Origin: an uncultured Pseudomonadota bacterium | Lineage (GTDB): Bacteria; Pseudomonadota; Alphaproteobacteria; RUG11792 | Length of the DNA: 32,651 nucleotides | Assembly: GCA_902795615.1 (NCBI GenBank) | Contig: CADBLQ010000004.1 | Location: 1-32,651, forward strand | Direction: 5' to 3' | Shown: positions 11,112-32,294 of the stretch, one piece after another | Layout: each line of letters starts with the position of its first letter | Numbering within the stretch: the first letter of the stretch is position 1 | Program-made: the position numbers and the translations under genes | The notes under the pieces: model-generated | The model's input: only the letters and a program-made list of their open reading frames with translations | The model's database searches: none | What the model was told of the DNA's origin: nothing

Positions 11112-12578
11112 TTATTTTACGTGCGTAAGTTTTTTATCATTTTTTATTTGTGATATCCAGAGTTTTATCCGTTCAAGAATACTAAGCGTTGTGTTAGATT
11201 TTTTGTTTTGTTCTGAAACAGTGGTCTTTTTTTTAGGAATGTTTACATCTCGATAAACTGGCACATACAGAATAGTTTCGTTTTTTATACGTTTCTGCCC
11301 TAGTGGAACAAGTCGTAGTTCCACGTATTGTTCTCCGATAGACTGTTTTTCAAGATTGTGAAAACATTCAACACTGGTAACCCCAACATTTCGCACAGTG
11401 AGTATAATGTCCCCCTGTCTAATTCCTGCAACAGATGCCATTCCACCTTCAGTAATAGATTTCACAGATACGCCACAATTCCCTCTTTTAACCTCATCTT
11501 GTAACTTACCAAAAGAATCACCATCTATTATATTAGCGAAAGTTGTTGCTATATCGGAATATAGGGAATGATCCCAATTACTAATAATTTTTACCAATTG
11601 CTTTTTCTGCGTATTATCTAATGGTTCTACCTCGAGTCCTAAGCTACTATCTTCAGACAATTTAATTAGCCAAGGAGTTGCTAATTGCATACCTCTTTTT
11701 ATAATAGAGGCTGGAATTGCATATGACATAGGTGCGTAAATATCTTTTTGGTAAGTTGCTATTCCCAATAATTTTGCGTCAAGAGTTATTAATGCACCTC
11801 CGTGTACTTCTGGTGTAACAACATCAGCAAGTACTGGATTGTAAATTATCAAACGTCGTAATCCCTCAAAAATATCAGATGAAATACGACTACAGAAAAA
11901 TTGATAACCTACGAATGAATTCGTATTAACACCCGGATTACGCTCAGAAATACTTACTGAGTTGACTTTACACTTACCATGAACTATTCCTCCGTTGAGC
12001 AAATACATTTTTTCTTTACTATCCGTTATTGCGGCATCATTGGCAATATTGAGATAATTAAATTTTCTACTAGCCTGTGATTTTGGCAATTCGATTTTTA
12101 AAAATGCTAAACCTAGTTCTGGAATAGCTTTTATTAACTTACCATTGAATTCGTTTTTGGTTAACGGTAACTCACCATTTTCTTTATTCTTCTTTCGCCG
12201 TTCGCTATTAATCGAAATAATAAAACTGTCAGCGTATTTCACACAATCATATGGAGTTACTACAACACCATCACTTGATATAACAACTCCCGAAATAACG
12301 CCATACCGGTATTCAAACGCACTATTTCTCGGTTTAGCGGCTATGTTATAAAAAATATCTTTTCCCGGATTTGCTGGGACTTTTGAACTTATTGAATAAA
12401 TTAAAACTACCGCTGATGAAGTTTCTCGAATAATGCGATTAAATTGTCCTATTTCAGGTAAGTTAATCAAAAAATCCCTTAGTTCTAATAGTTTATCAGC
12501 GGATACAATGGTGGCTGATATTTCACTAATTAATACTCCGAAACACATTAATGTTTTACAGAACAACTTCAGTACCAT
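11112..12578 (-). CDS. Exported HtrA-like pseudoprotease with PDZ domain, T6SS-linked
   Basis: 488 residues. A signal peptide (about 1-23) precedes a trypsin-like DegP fold (about 50-300): the first strand pair around VISGVVISSDGVVVTPYD, then ELGLAFLKI, then the GGALITLDAKLLGIAT strand. A PDZ domain follows at about 365-440 (GVSVKSITEGGMASVAGIRQ, then GDIILTVRNV), and a basic tail ends the protein. All three catalytic positions are changed: His of the VTNxHVV motif is Asp111, the Asp of the D-(I/L)-A-L strand is Gly156, and the Ser of GNSGG is His259. It therefore looks like an inactive scaffold or binding protein. The start lies 3 nt after the tssC stop, so it is probably translated with tssBC. 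A link to the secretion machine is inference from position. Confidence 0.82.
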   Translation of the reverse strand: MVLKLFCKTLMCFGVLISEISATIVSADKLLELRDFLINLPEIGQFNRIIRETSSAVVLIYSISSKVPANPGKDIFYNIAAKPRNSAFEYRYGVISGVVISSDGVVVTPYDCVKYADSFIISINSERRKKNKENGELPLTKNEFNGKLIKAIPELGLAFLKIELPKSQASRKFNYLNIANDAAITDSKEKMYLLNGGIVHGKCKVNSVSISERNPGVNTNSFVGYQFFCSRISSDIFEGLRRLIIYNPVLADVVTPEVHGGALITLDAKLLGIATYQKDIYAPMSYAIPASIIKRGMQLATPWLIKLSEDSSLGLEVEPLDNTQKKQLVKIISNWDHSLYSDIATTFANIIDGDSFGKLQDEVKRGNCGVSVKSITEGGMASVAGIRQGDIILTVRNVGVTSVECFHNLEKQSIGEQYVELRLVPLGQKRIKNETILYVPVYRDVNIPKKKTTVSEQNKKSNTTLSILERIKLWISQIKNDKKLTHVK

Positions 12579-12581
12579 TTT

Positions 12582-14051
12582 TTATACCTCTCGACGGGGC
12601 AACATAGTAACTAGCCTTATTGATGCAGTTAATTCTTCCATTTGAAAATGGGGTCGTAAATATATAACAGCTTTATATGAGCCAGGTTTTCCTGGTACAT
12701 CAAATACGTCCACCCGTCCTTCACGTAATGGATATTGTGCTTTTACACTGGATGACGCATCATCATTTAGTAATATGTACCCTGACAGCCAAGTATTTAA
12801 ATACGCTTCAATATTCTCCTTCATTAAAAATGAGCCTATTTTGTCACGCATTAGGATTTTAATGTAGTGAGCAAACCTAGAGGATACCAACATGTAAGTC
12901 AGTCTTGCTGATAAGCTAGCATTAGCATTAGCATCATCTAGATTGTACAATCTTGGTTTTTGTGTAGTCTGCCCACCAAAAAAGACTGCATAATCGGTAC
13001 CCTTACAATAACAGATGCTCAAAAAACCTAAATCGCTTAATTCTTTCTCACGTCTATCAGTAATTGCTACCTCAGTTGGACATTTTACAGACTTATCACC
13101 TTCAAGGGTTTTAAAAATGTAAGTTGGCAGATTTTCAACCATTCCTCCTCCCTCAACTCCACGAATTGCAGCAGTCCAGCCGTACAATGAAAAAGCATTT
13201 GTTATACGTTGACCAAGAGCGTATGCAGGATTTCCCCAGCAGAATTTGTCAGTATCCCCGACACCTACATCCTCATTAAAGTTAAACCCTACAACAGGTA
13301 GGGTATTATCACCATATGGTAAACGCATTAGTATACGAGGCAACAATAAAGCAACATACCGTGAATCTTCCGAATTTCTAAATGCATTCCACTTAACATA
13401 ATCAGGAGATTCAAACAGCTTTGCTAAATCTCTAGGAAATGGTAAATCTTCAAATTTATCTAGGTTAAAAAACAATGGTGAAACAGCTGAAATGAAAGGA
13501 GTATGTGCAGTAGCGACAACACCTGATATCAGCTCTAATAATCTTATATCCTGTACATGATTTGAAAAATAAAAATCACCAATCAAACAGGAATAAGGTG
13601 AGCCACCAAATGTACCATATTCTTCTTCATATATTTTTTTAAATAAATTACTTTGATCAAATTCTATTGCTTTTGTTAAATCCTCCCGTAGAACTTCAAG
13701 TGACGTGTTAAGCACTCGAACTTTAAGTTGTGAACAAGTTTCAGTATTCATTACAAAGTAATGTAATCCTCGCCAACTACCTTCCAATTTTTGAAATGCT
13801 GGATGATGTAGAATTTCATTAATCTGGGCTGTTAAAAATTCATCAATCTCGGTAATTCTACGCATCAGGAATGGAATTATTTCAGTTTCCTGAGCATCAG
13901 CATCTATCATCAATAACTCCTCGACAAATTCAGACAGCATTTCAACAGCATCATCTTCTTGTTCATCAAAACGTATCATTTTGCGTTCATGGAGCAAAAT
14001 ATCCAATATCTTGGCTTCGTCTGGAATTATTATGGTCGAATCTTCTATCAT
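12582..14051 (-). CDS. tssC: T6SS contractile sheath large subunit TssC/VipB
   Basis: 489 residues, the normal size. TssC forms the contractile sheath with TssB in the cytoplasm; contraction drives the Hcp tube and spike into a target. Visible family blocks: FQKLEGSWRGLHYFV near 90-104, GTFGGSPYSCLIGDFYF, TPFISAVSPLFF, LPRILMRLPYG, FCWGNPAYALGQRI, a GWTAAIRG segment, TDRREKELSDLGF, and the C-terminal end with PGSYKAVIYLRPHFQMEELTASIRLV. Nothing essential appears missing. It lies 3 nt after tssB and 3 nt before the pseudoprotease gene. Confidence 0.97.
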   Translation of the reverse strand: MIEDSTIIIPDEAKILDILLHERKMIRFDEQEDDAVEMLSEFVEELLMIDADAQETEIIPFLMRRITEIDEFLTAQINEILHHPAFQKLEGSWRGLHYFVMNTETCSQLKVRVLNTSLEVLREDLTKAIEFDQSNLFKKIYEEEYGTFGGSPYSCLIGDFYFSNHVQDIRLLELISGVVATAHTPFISAVSPLFFNLDKFEDLPFPRDLAKLFESPDYVKWNAFRNSEDSRYVALLLPRILMRLPYGDNTLPVVGFNFNEDVGVGDTDKFCWGNPAYALGQRITNAFSLYGWTAAIRGVEGGGMVENLPTYIFKTLEGDKSVKCPTEVAITDRREKELSDLGFLSICYCKGTDYAVFFGGQTTQKPRLYNLDDANANASLSARLTYMLVSSRFAHYIKILMRDKIGSFLMKENIEAYLNTWLSGYILLNDDASSSVKAQYPLREGRVDVFDVPGKPGSYKAVIYLRPHFQMEELTASIRLVTMLPRREV

Positions 14052-14054
14052 GAT

Positions 14055-14648
14055 TTACCGTGATGTTTCATCTACAATCTGTTCTGATGTTTTCTCAGTA
14101 ATTGATTTTTTTAAGTCTGCATTCTTGTCTAAAAATTCAGCTTGTTGGAATTTTCTTTCGTCAATTTCTCGTTTTAGTTTATTTAAATTATCGCGATTTT
14201 TCATTATCTGATTTAGCAAATTTTCAAGTGAATCATTGCCATCCATTTTAGTAATAAGATTTTTTAAGTTAGTACGTTTTTTATATAGCTGAGCTAGAAC
14301 AGGTACGTTTTGTGCCAAATTTTGAGGTTCAAAATCTTCCATTTTTTCAAAGTTCAACTCAATACTAGTTTCTGGTACATCTCCCGATATACGGTTCGGA
14401 ACTCGTATAACTAATCTTGGTGATATTACCCGCATCATTTCTGAAAAGTTATCACGATCTACTTCAACAAATTTTCGAAGCTTAAGTGGCGGTAATGGGC
14501 TTGCAGGCATTCCAGAAAGATCCGCAAGAACTCCGACTACAAACGGTAACTCTTTTTTTTCTATTGCATTTCCAATTTCAACATCATATGTTATGTGTAC
14601 TCTAGGACGCCGAATTCTATCAATAGTGTGTTGCCTACTTTCTGCCAT
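14055..14648 (-). CDS. tssB: T6SS contractile sheath small subunit TssB/VipA
   Basis: 197 residues. The N-terminus has RIRRPRVHITYDVEIG followed by KKELPFVVGVLADLSG, the hallmark of TssB. KFVEVDRDNFSEMM and the LNFEKMEDFEPQNL block follow. The C-terminal third is a charged coiled coil, slightly longer than usual (~165-175 residues in many species). It pairs with TssC to build the sheath. First gene of the minus-strand tssB-tssC-pseudoprotease unit, divergent from the secretin gene. Confidence 0.97.
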   Translation of the reverse strand: MAESRQHTIDRIRRPRVHITYDVEIGNAIEKKELPFVVGVLADLSGMPASPLPPLKLRKFVEVDRDNFSEMMRVISPRLVIRVPNRISGDVPETSIELNFEKMEDFEPQNLAQNVPVLAQLYKKRTNLKNLITKMDGNDSLENLLNQIMKNRDNLNKLKREIDERKFQQAEFLDKNADLKKSITEKTSEQIVDETSR

Positions 14649-14816: not shown

Positions 14817-16388
14817 ATGCAATTTCTGAGCATGTTGTGGTACAAAAGCATATTATTTATTGCGTTAATTTTATTAGGATGTGACAAAATTTCTGAGGAC
14901 AAATATTTATCAAAAAATATGAATACTAGTTCAATGAATGAACTGACAGCACCAATTTTGCCAACTGATCGTCAAAAAAAACCACCACAAATTCCTAGAG
15001 CATCAAAACCAACAATTCCAGTAAAATTTAGACAGCCTGTTTCTCTAATATTAAACGAAACACTTCCTATAAAATCTGTACTTTACGAAGTTGCCAACAA
15101 GCTAAACATTAACATGCAAATAGCCTCTGACATCGATGCACGTATAATTTTTAGAGCCAATAACCAACCGTTTATTGAGGTAATTGACGCAATATGTGAT
15201 ATTGCAAATTTGCGATACACTATACAATCTGATTTTATAAAAATTGTTAAAGATACACCATACGCAAAAAACTATGATATTCAATTCCTAAATCTTTCAC
15301 GTGAGAGTGAAAACAAAATATCAATTGCTACAGAAGTAAATGGAGTAAAAAACATAGAAAAGGAAAATACTGATAGTCAAGTCACAATAAAAGCTCAAAG
15401 CGATTTCTGGACTGAATTAAGTAATAGTTTAGGTATCATATTAGGTGGAAGCTCAGAAAACAAATATTCAATTAACAAACAATCAGGCATAGTTACAGTT
15501 TATGCGAATTCAAAAACACATAAAGACGTAGAAACATATATTAATGAAGTAAAAGCAGTTAATACTGGACAGGTGTTAATTGAAGCAAAAATCATAGAAG
15601 TTGTGCTGAAAAATGAGTATAAACGTGGTATTAATTGGAATATTCTTACAGCTGGTAAAGAGTTAGGATATACGCAGTCGTACAATGCTGACGCCTCCAC
15701 TTTGTCATTTAAGACAGATAGCATAGAGGGTATTTTAAAAGCTATGGAGGAATTTGGTTCAGTTCGAACATTATCAAATCCAAGGATTACCGCAATGAAT
15801 AACCAGGCAGCGGTGTTAAAAATTGCACAAAATCATGTTTATTTTAAATTAAATTACGACAAAACATATTCCGGCCGAAATGCTGACCGAGAAGACATTA
15901 ATGTATCAAGTGATATAAAAACAATTCCAATTGGCTTAGTAATGTTTGTTCAACCGTCAATTGACCTCAAAACTAGAACAATTTCACTCTTTTTAAGACC
16001 CACGATTACAAAACTTGAAGACAGTGTAAGTGACCCAGCAGTTGATATTGCACTAAAATCTGTGCAACATCATAAAAAAAACTCATATGTACCATCAAAA
16101 GTTCCGGTTACTGAAGTTAGGGAAGTCGCCTCGATGCTTAAGCTAAAGGATGGAGAAGTTGCTGTTTTAGGAGGATTTTTAGAAGTCATCTCTACAAAGA
16201 AAAAATCCGGATTGCCATTAGTAAGAGATATTCCTGTTTTGGGGGATGCTACTAGTAATACTAATATGAAAGATCAAATAGTAGAACTTGTTATTTTGGT
16301 TAAAGTTAGTATTGCCGATGATACTCCGTTACCTGATAATGCTGATATCAGGCTACAGCGCTATATAGATGATCCACGCAGGTTTTAG
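14817..16388 (+). CDS. Outer-membrane secretin, MshL/PilN type, predicted lipoprotein
   Basis: 523 residues. A lipoprotein signal is seen: a hydrophobic run at 11-20 ending in LLGC, with Cys22 as lipidation site. An ATG at 14832 (residue 6) is an alternative start. After a Pro-rich linker comes a secretin/TonB short N-terminal-like domain (about 70-140, LPIKSVLYEVANKLNINMQI), then an N-domain with VTVYANSKTHKDVETYI. The C-terminal secretin ring domain follows (about 245-500): VLIEAKIIEVVLKNEYKRGI, VRTLSNPRITAMNNQAAVLK and LKDGEVAVLGGFLE. MshL/PilN secretins form pores for type IV pili or type II-like export. No pilus or T2SS partner is visible here; the neighbour is tssB. Confidence 0.9.
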   Translation: MQFLSMLWYKSILFIALILLGCDKISEDKYLSKNMNTSSMNELTAPILPTDRQKKPPQIPRASKPTIPVKFRQPVSLILNETLPIKSVLYEVANKLNINMQIASDIDARIIFRANNQPFIEVIDAICDIANLRYTIQSDFIKIVKDTPYAKNYDIQFLNLSRESENKISIATEVNGVKNIEKENTDSQVTIKAQSDFWTELSNSLGIILGGSSENKYSINKQSGIVTVYANSKTHKDVETYINEVKAVNTGQVLIEAKIIEVVLKNEYKRGINWNILTAGKELGYTQSYNADASTLSFKTDSIEGILKAMEEFGSVRTLSNPRITAMNNQAAVLKIAQNHVYFKLNYDKTYSGRNADREDINVSSDIKTIPIGLVMFVQPSIDLKTRTISLFLRPTITKLEDSVSDPAVDIALKSVQHHKKNSYVPSKVPVTEVREVASMLKLKDGEVAVLGGFLEVISTKKKSGLPLVRDIPVLGDATSNTNMKDQIVELVILVKVSIADDTPLPDNADIRLQRYIDDPRRF

Positions 16389-16535: not shown

Positions 16536-17519
16536 ATGACAAAAATAATTAATGCTTTCGAAGTTGATAAAAGTAACCAAAATAAACACAACAGACACTT
16601 TGAACCTGACGATAATGTTGAATCTACTGAAAATATCTCTGAACCCAAAGTGTCTACACATTTCGAGTTTGAGTTCGATTACAGCAAAATATTACCAACC
16701 AATGATTTAATATTTAAACGTATTTTCTGGAATAAAGAACATCCTGATATCTTAATCTGTTTCTTGAATGCTATTCTAAGACGTGAAGACCCTATTACTT
16801 CTGTCGAATTAATAAATACAGAAATGGATGACCAATTTATTGGTAAACATGGTATTAGATTAGATCTATTAGGAAGGACAAACAATGGTGAGTTGTTAAA
16901 CATAGAGATGCAGAATAGCAATAATGACAATATGTTTAAAAGATCATTATATTATTGGTCAAAGGTGTATTCATCACAACTAGACCAAGGACAAGCATAT
17001 GAACGTTTAGTACCTGTCATAGCAATAAATATATTAGACTTTAACTTATTTGAAGATAATAGATGTCAAAGGAAGTTTATAATAACAGATGAGAAAACAG
17101 GTAAAGATGACTTTAAGATGTTGGAAATACATTTTATAGAGTTAAGGAAGAGGAAATACATGACGGATAATGATGAGTTATTGGCGTGGACAGAATTCTT
17201 AAAATCACCAAATTCTCCAAATTCTGATGCAATAGAAGTTAAAACATCGACTAAAAATAGGAAAGCAATATCAAATGCGAAGGGTATATATAGTACAGCT
17301 ATAGCTAGTAATGAAGAGCGAGAAAAGATAAGATTATTAAATAAAACTTTAACTGATAACGTTTCTAGAGTTATATCTGCTAGAAATGAAGGTTTAGCTG
17401 AGGGTGAACATAATGCAAAGATTGAAACAGCTAGGAAAATGTTATCAAAGGGGGCAGCTGTTGATTTTGTATCGGAGTGTACGGGATTATCTATTGACAA
17501 AATATTAAAACTACAGTAA
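16536..17519 (+). CDS. Rpn/PD-(D/E)XK nuclease family transposase-like protein
   Basis: 327 residues of the PDDEXK_2 / Rpn 'recombination-promoting nuclease, putative transposase' family, common in high copy in Rickettsiales and related symbionts. It has a charged N-terminal arm (1-45), the typical KILPTNDLIFKRIFWNKEHP opening, and a nuclease core with Asp110, Glu124 and Gln126 (R-L-D-L ... L-N-I-E-M-Q). SLYYWSKVYSSQL and a helical C-terminus ending in a short DNA-binding-like hairpin (DFVSECTGLSIDKILKL) follow. The catalytic residues are intact. No terminal inverted repeats or target duplication were found around it. Family members promote recA-independent recombination in E. coli; here the role is unproven. 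Confidence 0.9.
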   Translation: MTKIINAFEVDKSNQNKHNRHFEPDDNVESTENISEPKVSTHFEFEFDYSKILPTNDLIFKRIFWNKEHPDILICFLNAILRREDPITSVELINTEMDDQFIGKHGIRLDLLGRTNNGELLNIEMQNSNNDNMFKRSLYYWSKVYSSQLDQGQAYERLVPVIAINILDFNLFEDNRCQRKFIITDEKTGKDDFKMLEIHFIELRKRKYMTDNDELLAWTEFLKSPNSPNSDAIEVKTSTKNRKAISNAKGIYSTAIASNEEREKIRLLNKTLTDNVSRVISARNEGLAEGEHNAKIETARKMLSKGAAVDFVSECTGLSIDKILKLQ

Positions 17520-22061: not shown

Positions 22062-22505
22062 ATGGCTGACAACATTTTTCTTACTACTCTTAAAGAGATG
22101 TCTGACTGGGCATCACGTAAATCGTTATGGCCACTGGCTTGTGGATTATCATGTTGTGCAATAGAAATGATGCACACTGCAGCAAGTAGATATGATTTAG
22201 ACCAGTTTGGATGCTTATTTCGTGCCAGTCCGAGACACGCTGATTTAATGATAGTGTCGGGAACGGTGACTCATAAAATTGCTCCACTTATAAAAAACTT
22301 ATATGACCAAATGTTAAGCCCTAAATTTGTTATAGCTATGGGAAACTGTGCTATATCAGGTGGCTTATATGCTGATGCTCCATCTGTACTAAATGGAATA
22401 TCGAATATAATTCCGGTAGATATAAATATACTTGGTTGTCCGCCACGACCAGAAGATTTAGTCAAGGCAATATTTGAACTGCAACAACGTAAATCAGCTC
22501 AGTAA
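22062..22505 (+). CDS. nuoB: NuoB-type Fe-S subunit of respiratory complex I, stand-alone
   Basis: 147 residues, shorter than most alphaproteobacterial NuoB because the N-terminal extension is missing. It carries the N2 [4Fe-4S] cluster that passes electrons to quinone at the membrane arm junction. All four ligands are present: the Cys31-Cys32 pair (GLSCCAIEM), Cys96 (MGNCA) and Cys126 (LGCPPRPE). Also visible are SRYDLDQFG and YDQM. The motif after Cys96 is ISGGLYADAP, not the ANGGGYYHYS of usual proteobacterial NuoB, and GCPPRPE replaces GCPPTAE. Its partners nuoA and nuoC are not adjacent. It overlaps the 3' end of tssA by 12 nt. A related [NiFe]-hydrogenase-type subunit is a less likely alternative. 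Confidence 0.85.
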   Translation: MADNIFLTTLKEMSDWASRKSLWPLACGLSCCAIEMMHTAASRYDLDQFGCLFRASPRHADLMIVSGTVTHKIAPLIKNLYDQMLSPKFVIAMGNCAISGGLYADAPSVLNGISNIIPVDINILGCPPRPEDLVKAIFELQQRKSAQ

Positions 22506-23528
22506 TCGACGTAGCAATAAATGAGCTGATGTTTCTCCTTGTTGTAAATCATTCATAATTTCTAATAAATTCTTATCTTTCCATGAAACAACTAGCTTTA
22601 ATAAATACGGAGCAGGACTGTGTTTGTCGGTTTTTTCTAACTGCTCTGCTAAAGCCTTTAATGCAGAGTATAGAACTTCCCTATTTGATATTTGACCAAC
22701 TTTTATACTTTCCTCACTTATGTTTGGTATCTCTGGAGTAGACATCGTTACATTTGATATCACTGTAGTGCTTTTGAATAAGTGACGAACTGTATTAATA
22801 TCATCTAATAATTGCGTAAATGCCTTCGATGTAGAAGTATTTTCAGTAGCATTCTTTTTTACTAGTATAGCTGATAAATTGTCTATGTTGTGAATAATTA
22901 CATCCGTTTGTTTTAAAATCTTTTCACGTGTTTGTTGGCTTGCATTTTCTGCTATATTATTAATTTCTTCAATTGTTTTAATATTGTCATTTTTTGCTGT
23001 TTCAATTAAGCTGTTGGCTTGTGTAGGGTTTTGTAATATTTTCATTTTTAAATTACGTGCATATTCATAGTTGTACAAACTGAAACCAATTATTGGCAGT
23101 AAAATTACACGCTGATGTATTGTGTTATATATCCAATCCAGAATTCGAATTTTTTGTTCTATATCTGACTTTCCAGCAGTCGTATGTGGGTAGCATGTGT
23201 TCCAATATTTATCAATGAATTTGGTTAAAAACTCAATACCAGTGGCAACACCATTAAAACCATCTAACATAGTAAGAGCTTCAACTAGCCATCCGGCGAT
23301 TTGTAAGTCTTTAGAACGATTTTTGATAGCATCTACGCAAAGACTTTTAACTTTATTCCAATCAGCACGAGCAATATCATGTTCCCATACGCCTTGAGAG
23401 AGTTGTTCATCTTCTTCATACCTGGCATTGCGAATATCATCATATACTGATGTATAAGTCAAATCTTCTCCAACGTCATCTATAAATCCTTCTGCCAATT
23501 CGTTACGTGTATCTTGTGCCATGTTCAT
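22494..23528 (-). CDS. tssA: T6SS assembly protein TssA (ImpA family)
   Basis: 344 residues. The ImpA N-terminal domain is visible near 50-125: DWNKVKSLCVDAI, LQIAGWLVEALTMLDGFNGV and KYWNTCYPH. A helical middle follows. The C-terminal part has SNREVLYSALKALAEQLEKT and HSPAPYLLKLVVSWKDKNLLEIM, the VasJ/TssA-like end. TssA caps the growing sheath-tube and guides its assembly from the baseplate. It lies about 8 kb from tssBC and stands alone, so the T6SS genes are scattered. It diverges from pheT by 63 nt and converges on nuoB with a 12-nt overlap. Confidence 0.92.
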   Translation of the reverse strand: MNMAQDTRNELAEGFIDDVGEDLTYTSVYDDIRNARYEEDEQLSQGVWEHDIARADWNKVKSLCVDAIKNRSKDLQIAGWLVEALTMLDGFNGVATGIEFLTKFIDKYWNTCYPHTTAGKSDIEQKIRILDWIYNTIHQRVILLPIIGFSLYNYEYARNLKMKILQNPTQANSLIETAKNDNIKTIEEINNIAENASQQTREKILKQTDVIIHNIDNLSAILVKKNATENTSTSKAFTQLLDDINTVRHLFKSTTVISNVTMSTPEIPNISEESIKVGQISNREVLYSALKALAEQLEKTDKHSPAPYLLKLVVSWKDKNLLEIMNDLQQGETSAHLLLRRLLS

Positions 23529-30857: not shown

Positions 30858-32294
30858 TTATAAATTCAATATTGCTCCACTTCCAACTGTAATTTCAGAA
30901 GCTAAGTCTCCACTTGCAGGTGCAACTACTGTAATTCCTTTAAAGGTGTATTCAGTATTGGTTAATTTTACATTTACATTTTTCCCAATCTCTAACGAGT
31001 ATCCTTTCTCATCATCCACAGTAGGTTTATCGCTTATTACGAATTCCTTCGCTGTTGTTTCAACTTGACCTTTAGTGTGATTTGATACCTTTAAGTTTAG
31101 ATCTTTTTGTGTTGCCGTTGCATTTATTTTGCAAAAACTTGCTACTTCCGGTGAAAATTCAACGTCTGTCATGCTTGCTGACTTTAAAGCAACTGTTAGG
31201 TTGTTATTTTGCTCACCATTGAAAGTGATTGTTTTCAACCCTGCATTAGTAGTCTTTAGCGAAAGTGTCTTTTTTACACTAGGTTTTATATTCATATTGA
31301 ATGTATAAGAAGTATTAGTGCTTTCAAGACTTGATAATAAGTCGTAGCCTGTGTCTGTAGCCTCCCAATCAATCAAGACGTTACCTGCAGTATTAGGTGT
31401 TATTTCAGCTTTATCCTCAGCTGTCGTATTTTTATTTATATCTGCACCGAAATCTACTGAATAACTTACAGCTTCATCTGTACCCATATCATTTGTTTCA
31501 CTGGTAGGTATAACCGTTATGCTCTTCTCGTCGAGAGTCTTGTTTAAGGTTTCGTCATCAGCTATGAATTTAGTACCAGGGCTAGCAGGTGAAGTCATAT
31601 CTATTATCGAAACATTATAATAATTGCTGTCTACAATCTTTTCCACTTTAAGTTTTGCCCCAGATATTTCCCCCTTTCCTTTGGTTACCCAAAGATCTTG
31701 AATTGAAGCATTCGTAAGAGTACAGTTTGCAATTTGCCCTGATAACTGGGTTCTTGCTACTTCATAGTCAGTCCGAATTGTGTTAGCATCGCTGTACTCA
31801 ATGCTTAGCTTATCATTTGCGTTGAGACCACTAGCATTCAATTTAGTAAAGGTTCCATTGGTAATGTTTATTGACCCGCCTGAACCAAATTGAACGGTTG
31901 TGCCACCAGTATTTACTGTACTACTATTACCAAACGCCATACTACTGGACACATTCATGGTTGGGTTATAATCTTGACTAGATATGGTTGTCTTAGCTAA
32001 CGTGAGATCCCCATTGAATGTTACATTACTAAAACTTAGTGAAACATTCCCTGTTGCAGAGAAGTTACCACTATACGTAACATCTTTATCAGCCACAATC
32101 GTTGCTGGTGAGTCTGCATCATCTGATGTTGCTGAACATGTCGCTGTAAACACGTATGCGTCACTTGTTTGCAAATTTAATTGCCCACCGGTAGCAACGT
32201 TCACTGGATAACTAATAGTATTGGTAGTAGATGTAGCATTTACCAAATTGATGCTTGCAAGCATTGCAAAAATTAATAACAATTTGTTTGTCAT
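30858..32294 (-). CDS. Secreted Ser/Thr/Asn-rich beta-structured protein, adhesin-like
   Basis: Not assigned to a family. 478 residues. A clean signal peptide (MTNKLLLIFAMLASINLVNA, cut after residue 20) follows a GAGG ribosome-binding site. The first ~140 mature residues are short alternating strands rich in Ser, Thr, Asn, Gly and Val (for example GNVSLSFSNVTFNGDLTL, then VQFGSGGSINITNGTF), as in beta-helix passenger domains. Further beta-type stretches continue to the end, with few charged clusters. It has no C-terminal barrel, no LPXTG and no type I secretion repeat, so it is not a classic autotransporter. It may be periplasmic, released, or surface-bound by a partner. A repeat-rich promoter region precedes it. 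Confidence 0.78.
   Translation of the reverse strand: MTNKLLLIFAMLASINLVNATSTTNTISYPVNVATGGQLNLQTSDAYVFTATCSATSDDADSPATIVADKDVTYSGNFSATGNVSLSFSNVTFNGDLTLAKTTISSQDYNPTMNVSSSMAFGNSSTVNTGGTTVQFGSGGSINITNGTFTKLNASGLNANDKLSIEYSDANTIRTDYEVARTQLSGQIANCTLTNASIQDLWVTKGKGEISGAKLKVEKIVDSNYYNVSIIDMTSPASPGTKFIADDETLNKTLDEKSITVIPTSETNDMGTDEAVSYSVDFGADINKNTTAEDKAEITPNTAGNVLIDWEATDTGYDLLSSLESTNTSYTFNMNIKPSVKKTLSLKTTNAGLKTITFNGEQNNNLTVALKSASMTDVEFSPEVASFCKINATATQKDLNLKVSNHTKGQVETTAKEFVISDKPTVDDEKGYSLEIGKNVNVKLTNTEYTFKGITVVAPASGDLASEITVGSGAILNL

Follow-up and report, generated by a model that had tools for sequence, protein, structure and literature searches.

Organization of the tssB-tssC operon

What is a protease-like gene doing in an operon that encodes the sheath of a type VI secretion system (T6SS)? 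In the window (the whole 32,651-nucleotide stretch of DNA that was analyzed), three minus-strand genes follow one another in the order tssB, tssC and a gene for an HtrA-like protein, hereafter P0001, with 3 nt at both junctions. The initial annotation had reported this order and the spacing after tssC, and we recovered the three reading frames at exactly the same positions:

14055..14648, minus strand: tssB (sheath small subunit, VipA), 197 aa; PF05591 4.9e-52; TIGR03358 172.4 bits, over cut-off
12582..14051, minus strand: tssC (sheath large subunit, VipB), 489 aa; PF05943 9.5e-126 and PF18945; TIGR03355 638.7 bits
11112..12578, minus strand: P0001, HtrA-like pseudoprotease with PDZ domain, 488 aa, third gene of the operon

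The TssB and TssC profiles both scored above curated NCBIfam cut-offs, and the P0001 gene is present in one copy in the genome. No T6SS family was found among the Pfam and NCBIfam matches of P0001, which thus corresponds to no known core component (TssA-M), in agreement with its initial placement outside the standard T6SS set. Promoter-like sites next to its gene, which is separated from tssC by the 3-nt gap, were no more frequent than in shuffled sequences.

Fold and predicted location of P0001

P0001 matched Trypsin_2 just below the curated cut-off (3.6e-5) and PDZ (PF00595) above it (23.4 bits), with weaker matches to the NCBIfam DegP/HtrA models. Across its family, Trypsin_2 was detected in 24 of the 25 scanned members and PDZ in all 25. 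AlphaFold models were obtained for P0001 (pLDDT 73) and for a compact relative (pLDDT 80), and the best PDB matches of both in Foldseek were DegP/DegQ/HtrA structures (best E-values 3e-17 and 1e-19, respectively); whole-chain TM-scores were low (0.3–0.56) despite these strong E-values, which may be explained by a differing placement of the two domains. Consistently, hhalign aligned P0001 to the DegP of its own genome over 350 columns (E 8e-16, 20% identity). The HtrA/DegP-like fold and the PDZ domain first proposed from the sequence are thus both borne out, and the protein can be divided as follows:

12513..12578, minus strand: putative Sec signal peptide, residues about 1–22; basic start and hydrophobic stretch, a heuristic call from hydropathy only
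11664..12455, minus strand: protease-like (trypsin fold) domain, residues about 42–305; Trypsin_2, fold model, Foldseek and profile alignment to DegP; boundaries approximate
11244..11651, minus strand: PDZ domain, residues about 310–445; PF00595, PDZ in 25/25 members and fold model; boundaries approximate

The PDZ domain carries a helical insert following its first strand. The N-terminal segment, already read as a signal peptide in the initial annotation, is signal-like by hydropathy; most family members likewise have hydrophobic and basic N-termini, one possible case excepted none has a lipobox, and no TM-like segment was found in P0001 downstream of the N-terminal hydrophobic stretch. From these sequence features, P0001 is predicted to be exported to the periplasm. 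In the protein of one genome (G032, L068:9462-11426), the protease-like domain is enlarged by an insert of about 200 residues that is acidic and repeat-like.

Loss of the catalytic triad

The triad columns were set by alignment with 11 intact DegP proteins of the same order, including the DegP of the same genome (L171:3033-5081). All three catalytic residues are replaced in P0001:

12246..12248, minus strand: Asp111 codon, at the catalytic His position; DegP TNYHVV is matched by TPYDCV
12111..12113, minus strand: Gly156 codon, at the catalytic Asp position; PKSDLAVL is matched by PELGLAFL
11802..11804, minus strand: His259 codon, at the catalytic Ser position; GNSGG is matched by EVHGG

The profile alignment (E 8e-16) agrees on these replacements, which are the same residues that the initial annotation had named; an intact triad elsewhere in P0001, the outcome that it had foreseen as fatal to its reading, was rejected by both the family and the profile alignment. 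In the oxyanion loop, Glu257 stands where DegP has Gly; this Glu is invariant in an alignment (A1) that excludes the most divergent member (G003). P0001 therefore lacks both defining features of an active HtrA serine protease, the His-Asp-Ser triad and the GNSGG oxyanion loop, and is predicted from its sequence to have no proteolytic activity.

The same degeneration extends across the family. The His column holds D, E, S, N, T and other residues, with His once; the Asp column holds Asn in 22 members, Gly in 5 and Asp once; and the Ser column varies freely, with Ser found twice, one of the two being in a protein truncated at the end of its contig. Since no complete member retains more than one triad residue, and H-D-S is intact in 11/11 DegP paralogue controls of the same order, triad inactivation is old and common to the whole family rather than a recent loss in one genome. 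A non-classical or other hydrolytic activity through different residues, for which the conserved polar residues Glu257, Asn78 and Lys202 could form a new site, is very unlikely: these residues have no demonstrated spatial cluster, and the free drift of the His and Ser positions leaves no alternative triad visible at the usual site.

Conservation and evolution within the order

Among 35 genomes of the order, a group of gut-dwelling relatives of intracellular Alphaproteobacteria, tssC was detected in 30, and in 30/30 of these the HtrA-like gene lies directly 3' of tssC. Most of these linked copies were found by direct tblastn; that of G003 is very divergent (L060:8218-9312, family HMM 84 bits), and that of G009 is cut by a contig end and still next to tssC. 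The gap between the tssC stop and the HtrA-like start has a median of 6 nt and a range of −4 to 25 nt, a spacing in keeping with translational coupling. Across the order, the only genes at this locus that recur together are tssB, tssC and the HtrA-like gene, while the outer flanking genes vary by genus. A search for the same gene order in relatives, suggested when the locus was initially annotated, thus found it in every tssC-bearing genome of the order, and the opposing possibility raised there, a chance neighbor with its own promoter, is countered by this conserved linkage and by a gap too small for a promoter.

The HtrA-like gene tree groups genera together, and its distances track those of TssC (Mantel r 0.59, 0/2000 permutations), with the HtrA-like protein evolving about 7-fold faster. 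Reading frames are intact wherever the gene is complete, and dN/dS for close pairs is 0.10–0.15, compared to 0.01–0.07 for TssC; synonymous sites approach saturation in pairs from the window's own genus, and the two pairs from genus g19 are more reliable. With a dN/dS of 0.10–0.15, P0001 is maintained rather than decaying, and a pseudogene reading is rejected. A single genome, with its lost triad and low sequence conservation, would have permitted the view that P0001 is a chance neighbor or a decaying gene riding a conserved operon. However, this view is refuted and retains next to no probability given the 30/30 linkage with varying flanks, which itself rejects chance linkage, the intact frames, the dN/dS values and the PDZ domain in all scanned members.

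Fast evolution and the position as last gene of a T6SS operon would also be accounted for if P0001 were a periplasmic immunity or self-protection protein that neutralizes T6SS effectors arriving from sister cells. Its roughly sevenfold rate relative to TssC, its predicted periplasmic location, and a PDZ domain and cleft suited to peptide binding all fit this idea. Immunity genes are, however, normally strain-variable and paired, whereas P0001 is single-copy, universal and vertically inherited, is under purifying selection, and has no conserved effector gene next to it, so that we consider an immunity role improbable.

The main rival reading is that this dead HtrA acts in general envelope quality control by binding and modulating the cell's active DegP; its link to the sheath would then be one of co-expression only, for instance if firing of the T6SS puts stress on the envelope. 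HtrA proteins form trimers, and the same genome encodes a DegP that looks active and retains its triad, both of which favor such a partnership. There is also a precedent in MamO of magnetotactic Alphaproteobacteria, an HtrA-type pseudoprotease that activates MamE-dependent proteolysis without activity of its own (PMC4794232). Yet in the genomes in which tssC was not detected (four incomplete and one, G004, 96% complete), no copy of the HtrA-like gene was detected either, while HtrA/DegP-family matches are still present. A general DegP partner would also not be expected after tssC in 30/30 genomes despite repeated rearrangement of the flanks, and we therefore view this reading as unlikely.

The MamO comparison itself extends to an HtrA trypsin-like fold, a degenerate triad and a place in the gene set of one envelope-linked structure. 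It ends at function, since MamO acts in magnetosome formation through metal binding and MamE activation whereas the gene for P0001 is tied to those of the T6SS sheath, and at sequence, since P0001 scores only 19 bits with the MamO family model NF040961, whose cut-off is 800, and so falls outside that family. With DegP, DegQ and DegS (S1C), P0001 shares a protease-like domain followed by PDZ and an export-type N-terminus, but it has lost the triad and oxyanion loop, has one PDZ domain where DegP and DegQ have two, and sits in a tssB-tssC operon.

Distribution outside the order

When 385 genomes of the class were searched with the family profile, scores were 234–499 bits within the order; outside it they did not exceed 88 bits, and the matches there were ordinary DegP-like proteins. 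Similarly, among the best 80 T6SS loci nearest to the TssC encoded next to P0001 (GTDB species genomes), the gene was found near tssC in members of this order only; about 65 of these loci lie outside the order, including other Holosporales and the Paracaedibacteraceae UBA6184, and have no HtrA-like gene nearby. A divergent hcp directly follows tssC in many of the loci outside the order. No relative of the HtrA-like protein was found on viral contigs.

A [tssB-tssC-hcp] unit has been described in Bodocaedibacteraceae, Paracaedibacteraceae and Caedimonadaceae (PMC8163844). The Holosporales T6SS described there resembles the present one in its tssB-tssC core, in occurring in related bacteria and in being a reduced T6SS spread over several loci; the slot after tssC, however, is occupied by hcp in that unit and by the pseudoprotease here, with a divergent Hcp-like gene elsewhere in this order.

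Named records within the group are metagenome-assembled genomes whose titles read goat rumen, RUG "uncultured proteobacterium" and "Holosporales bacterium". According to a review of Holosporales (PMC11909080), termites and springbok harbor an uncharacterized gut clade of Paracaedibacteraceae, which may be the same clade as this order.

The remaining T6SS of the order

Other T6SS genes are scattered over the genome. Within the window, a tssA gene is unlinked to the tssB-tssC operon; two genes of a divergent Hcp-like family of the order, at other loci, are listed below it:

22494..23528, minus strand: tssA; TIGR03363 177 bits, over cut-off
L172:1319-1981, minus strand: divergent Hcp-like gene
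L213:5503-6162, plus strand: divergent Hcp-like gene

tssA shares 12 nt with the 3' end of nuoB, which is on the opposite strand, and lies apart from other T6SS genes. Genes tssK, tssL and tssM lie together at L170:6116-12951 in this genome, and across the order TssL was detected in 32/35 genomes and TssK in 33/35. TssM (L170:8341-12951, plus strand, 1536 aa) has the IcmF N-terminal domain (PF14331) as its sole recognizable domain; it is 44–69% conserved between genomes, beyond the N-terminal domain it gave zero Pfam matches, and a TssM profile of the order matched no PDB sequence. Neither TssJ (PF12790) nor the C-terminal IcmF_C domain of TssM (PF06744) was found in any of the 35 genomes, with E. 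coli controls positive for both. The T6SS of this order thus departs from the canonical TssJLM envelope complex, as defined by a TssJ lipoprotein and the IcmF_C domain of TssM.

Absence by Pfam alone is no proof, as the Hcp proteins illustrate: the Pfam model PF05638 found no Hcp in the order, yet 27/35 genomes carry members of a divergent Hcp-like family, found from L172, that lie apart from tssB-tssC (in this genome, at G000:C15) and escape that model. Like Hcp, TssJ and the C-terminal domain of TssM may be present but too divergent for Pfam models, and "Hcp-less" Holosporales T6SSs may simply have an unrecognized Hcp. The Holosporales T6SS has been called non-standard and lacking TssD and TssJ, in a sentence that appears to swap the descriptions of the two (PMC11909080).

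Proposed role of P0001

On balance, we lean towards P0001 being a clade-specific, non-proteolytic, periplasmic accessory scaffold or adaptor of the T6SS at the envelope. It would be produced together with the sheath from the tssB-tssC operon and exported to the periplasm, having kept the HtrA fold and PDZ domain and lost proteolysis; at T6SS assembly sites in the envelope it would then serve as a non-catalytic adaptor or scaffold, with the PDZ domain or the cleft of the former active site holding on to a periplasmic component of the apparatus. The most likely partner would be TssM, which is long and divergent, in a T6SS that has no recognizable TssJ outer-membrane anchor. Both this T6SS function and the binding partner are putative, and operon membership may reflect shared expression only. 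Among the three roles initially suggested (scaffold, effector chaperone and regulator of the membrane complex), the chaperone has least in its favor, since loading of T6SS cargo takes place in the cytoplasm.

Non-core envelope proteins that position or support a T6SS have precedents in TssJ, TagV and TssW, including TssJ-independent firing; TagV is a lipoprotein and TssW an outer-membrane anchor, both extra envelope proteins supporting the T6SS (PMC7614798, PMC12607579). Their abstracts report no HtrA relationship, and, unlike TagV, the P0001 family has no lipobox bar the one possible case. P0001 is not a general substitute for TssJ, since published Holosporales T6SSs are also reported to lack TssJ (PMC11909080) and the loci of other Holosporales-type T6SSs have no such gene near tssC. 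A bolder version of the scaffold proposal, in which an oligomer of the dead HtrA forms a periplasmic ring or gate that replaces TssJ and the TssM C-terminal domain and is essential in this TssJ-less T6SS, seems doubtful.

Our literature search covered open-access papers and found no description of an HtrA or trypsin-like pseudoprotease associated with a T6SS. The ingredients, HtrA pseudoproteases and T6SS, are known; to the extent tested, the novelty lies in their combination, its strict conservation and the position in the hcp slot. Because TssJ or Hcp could not be found, T6SSs of Holosporales-type symbionts have been called incomplete, and the HtrA-like gene is a conserved candidate for a missing envelope part in one such lineage. 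This suggests that a protease fold was recruited as a non-enzymatic machine component, comparable to MamO in magnetosomes, and makes a dead-HtrA gene after tssC a genetic marker for this T6SS subtype in metagenomes.

Neighboring genes

PADLOC gave zero matches, and a defense role was rejected on this basis. In the genus to which the window belongs, an MshL-type secretin gene (window 14817-16388, plus strand) lies divergent to tssB (also at L031 and L032). In genus g19 (G028, G029, G030) the secretin gene directly adjoins tssK, and elsewhere in the order it is unlinked; with linkage in two genera only, the secretin was rejected as a conserved T6SS partner, and its association with T6SS genes could be due to chance. 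The window also holds a PD-(D/E)XK nuclease family transposase gene (16536-17519, plus strand; PF12784 6e-48). Two hypothetical proteins predicted to be secreted, encoded in this genome at window 30858-32294 (minus strand) and L171:97-1560 (minus strand), are alike in style, both being rich in Asn and Thr.
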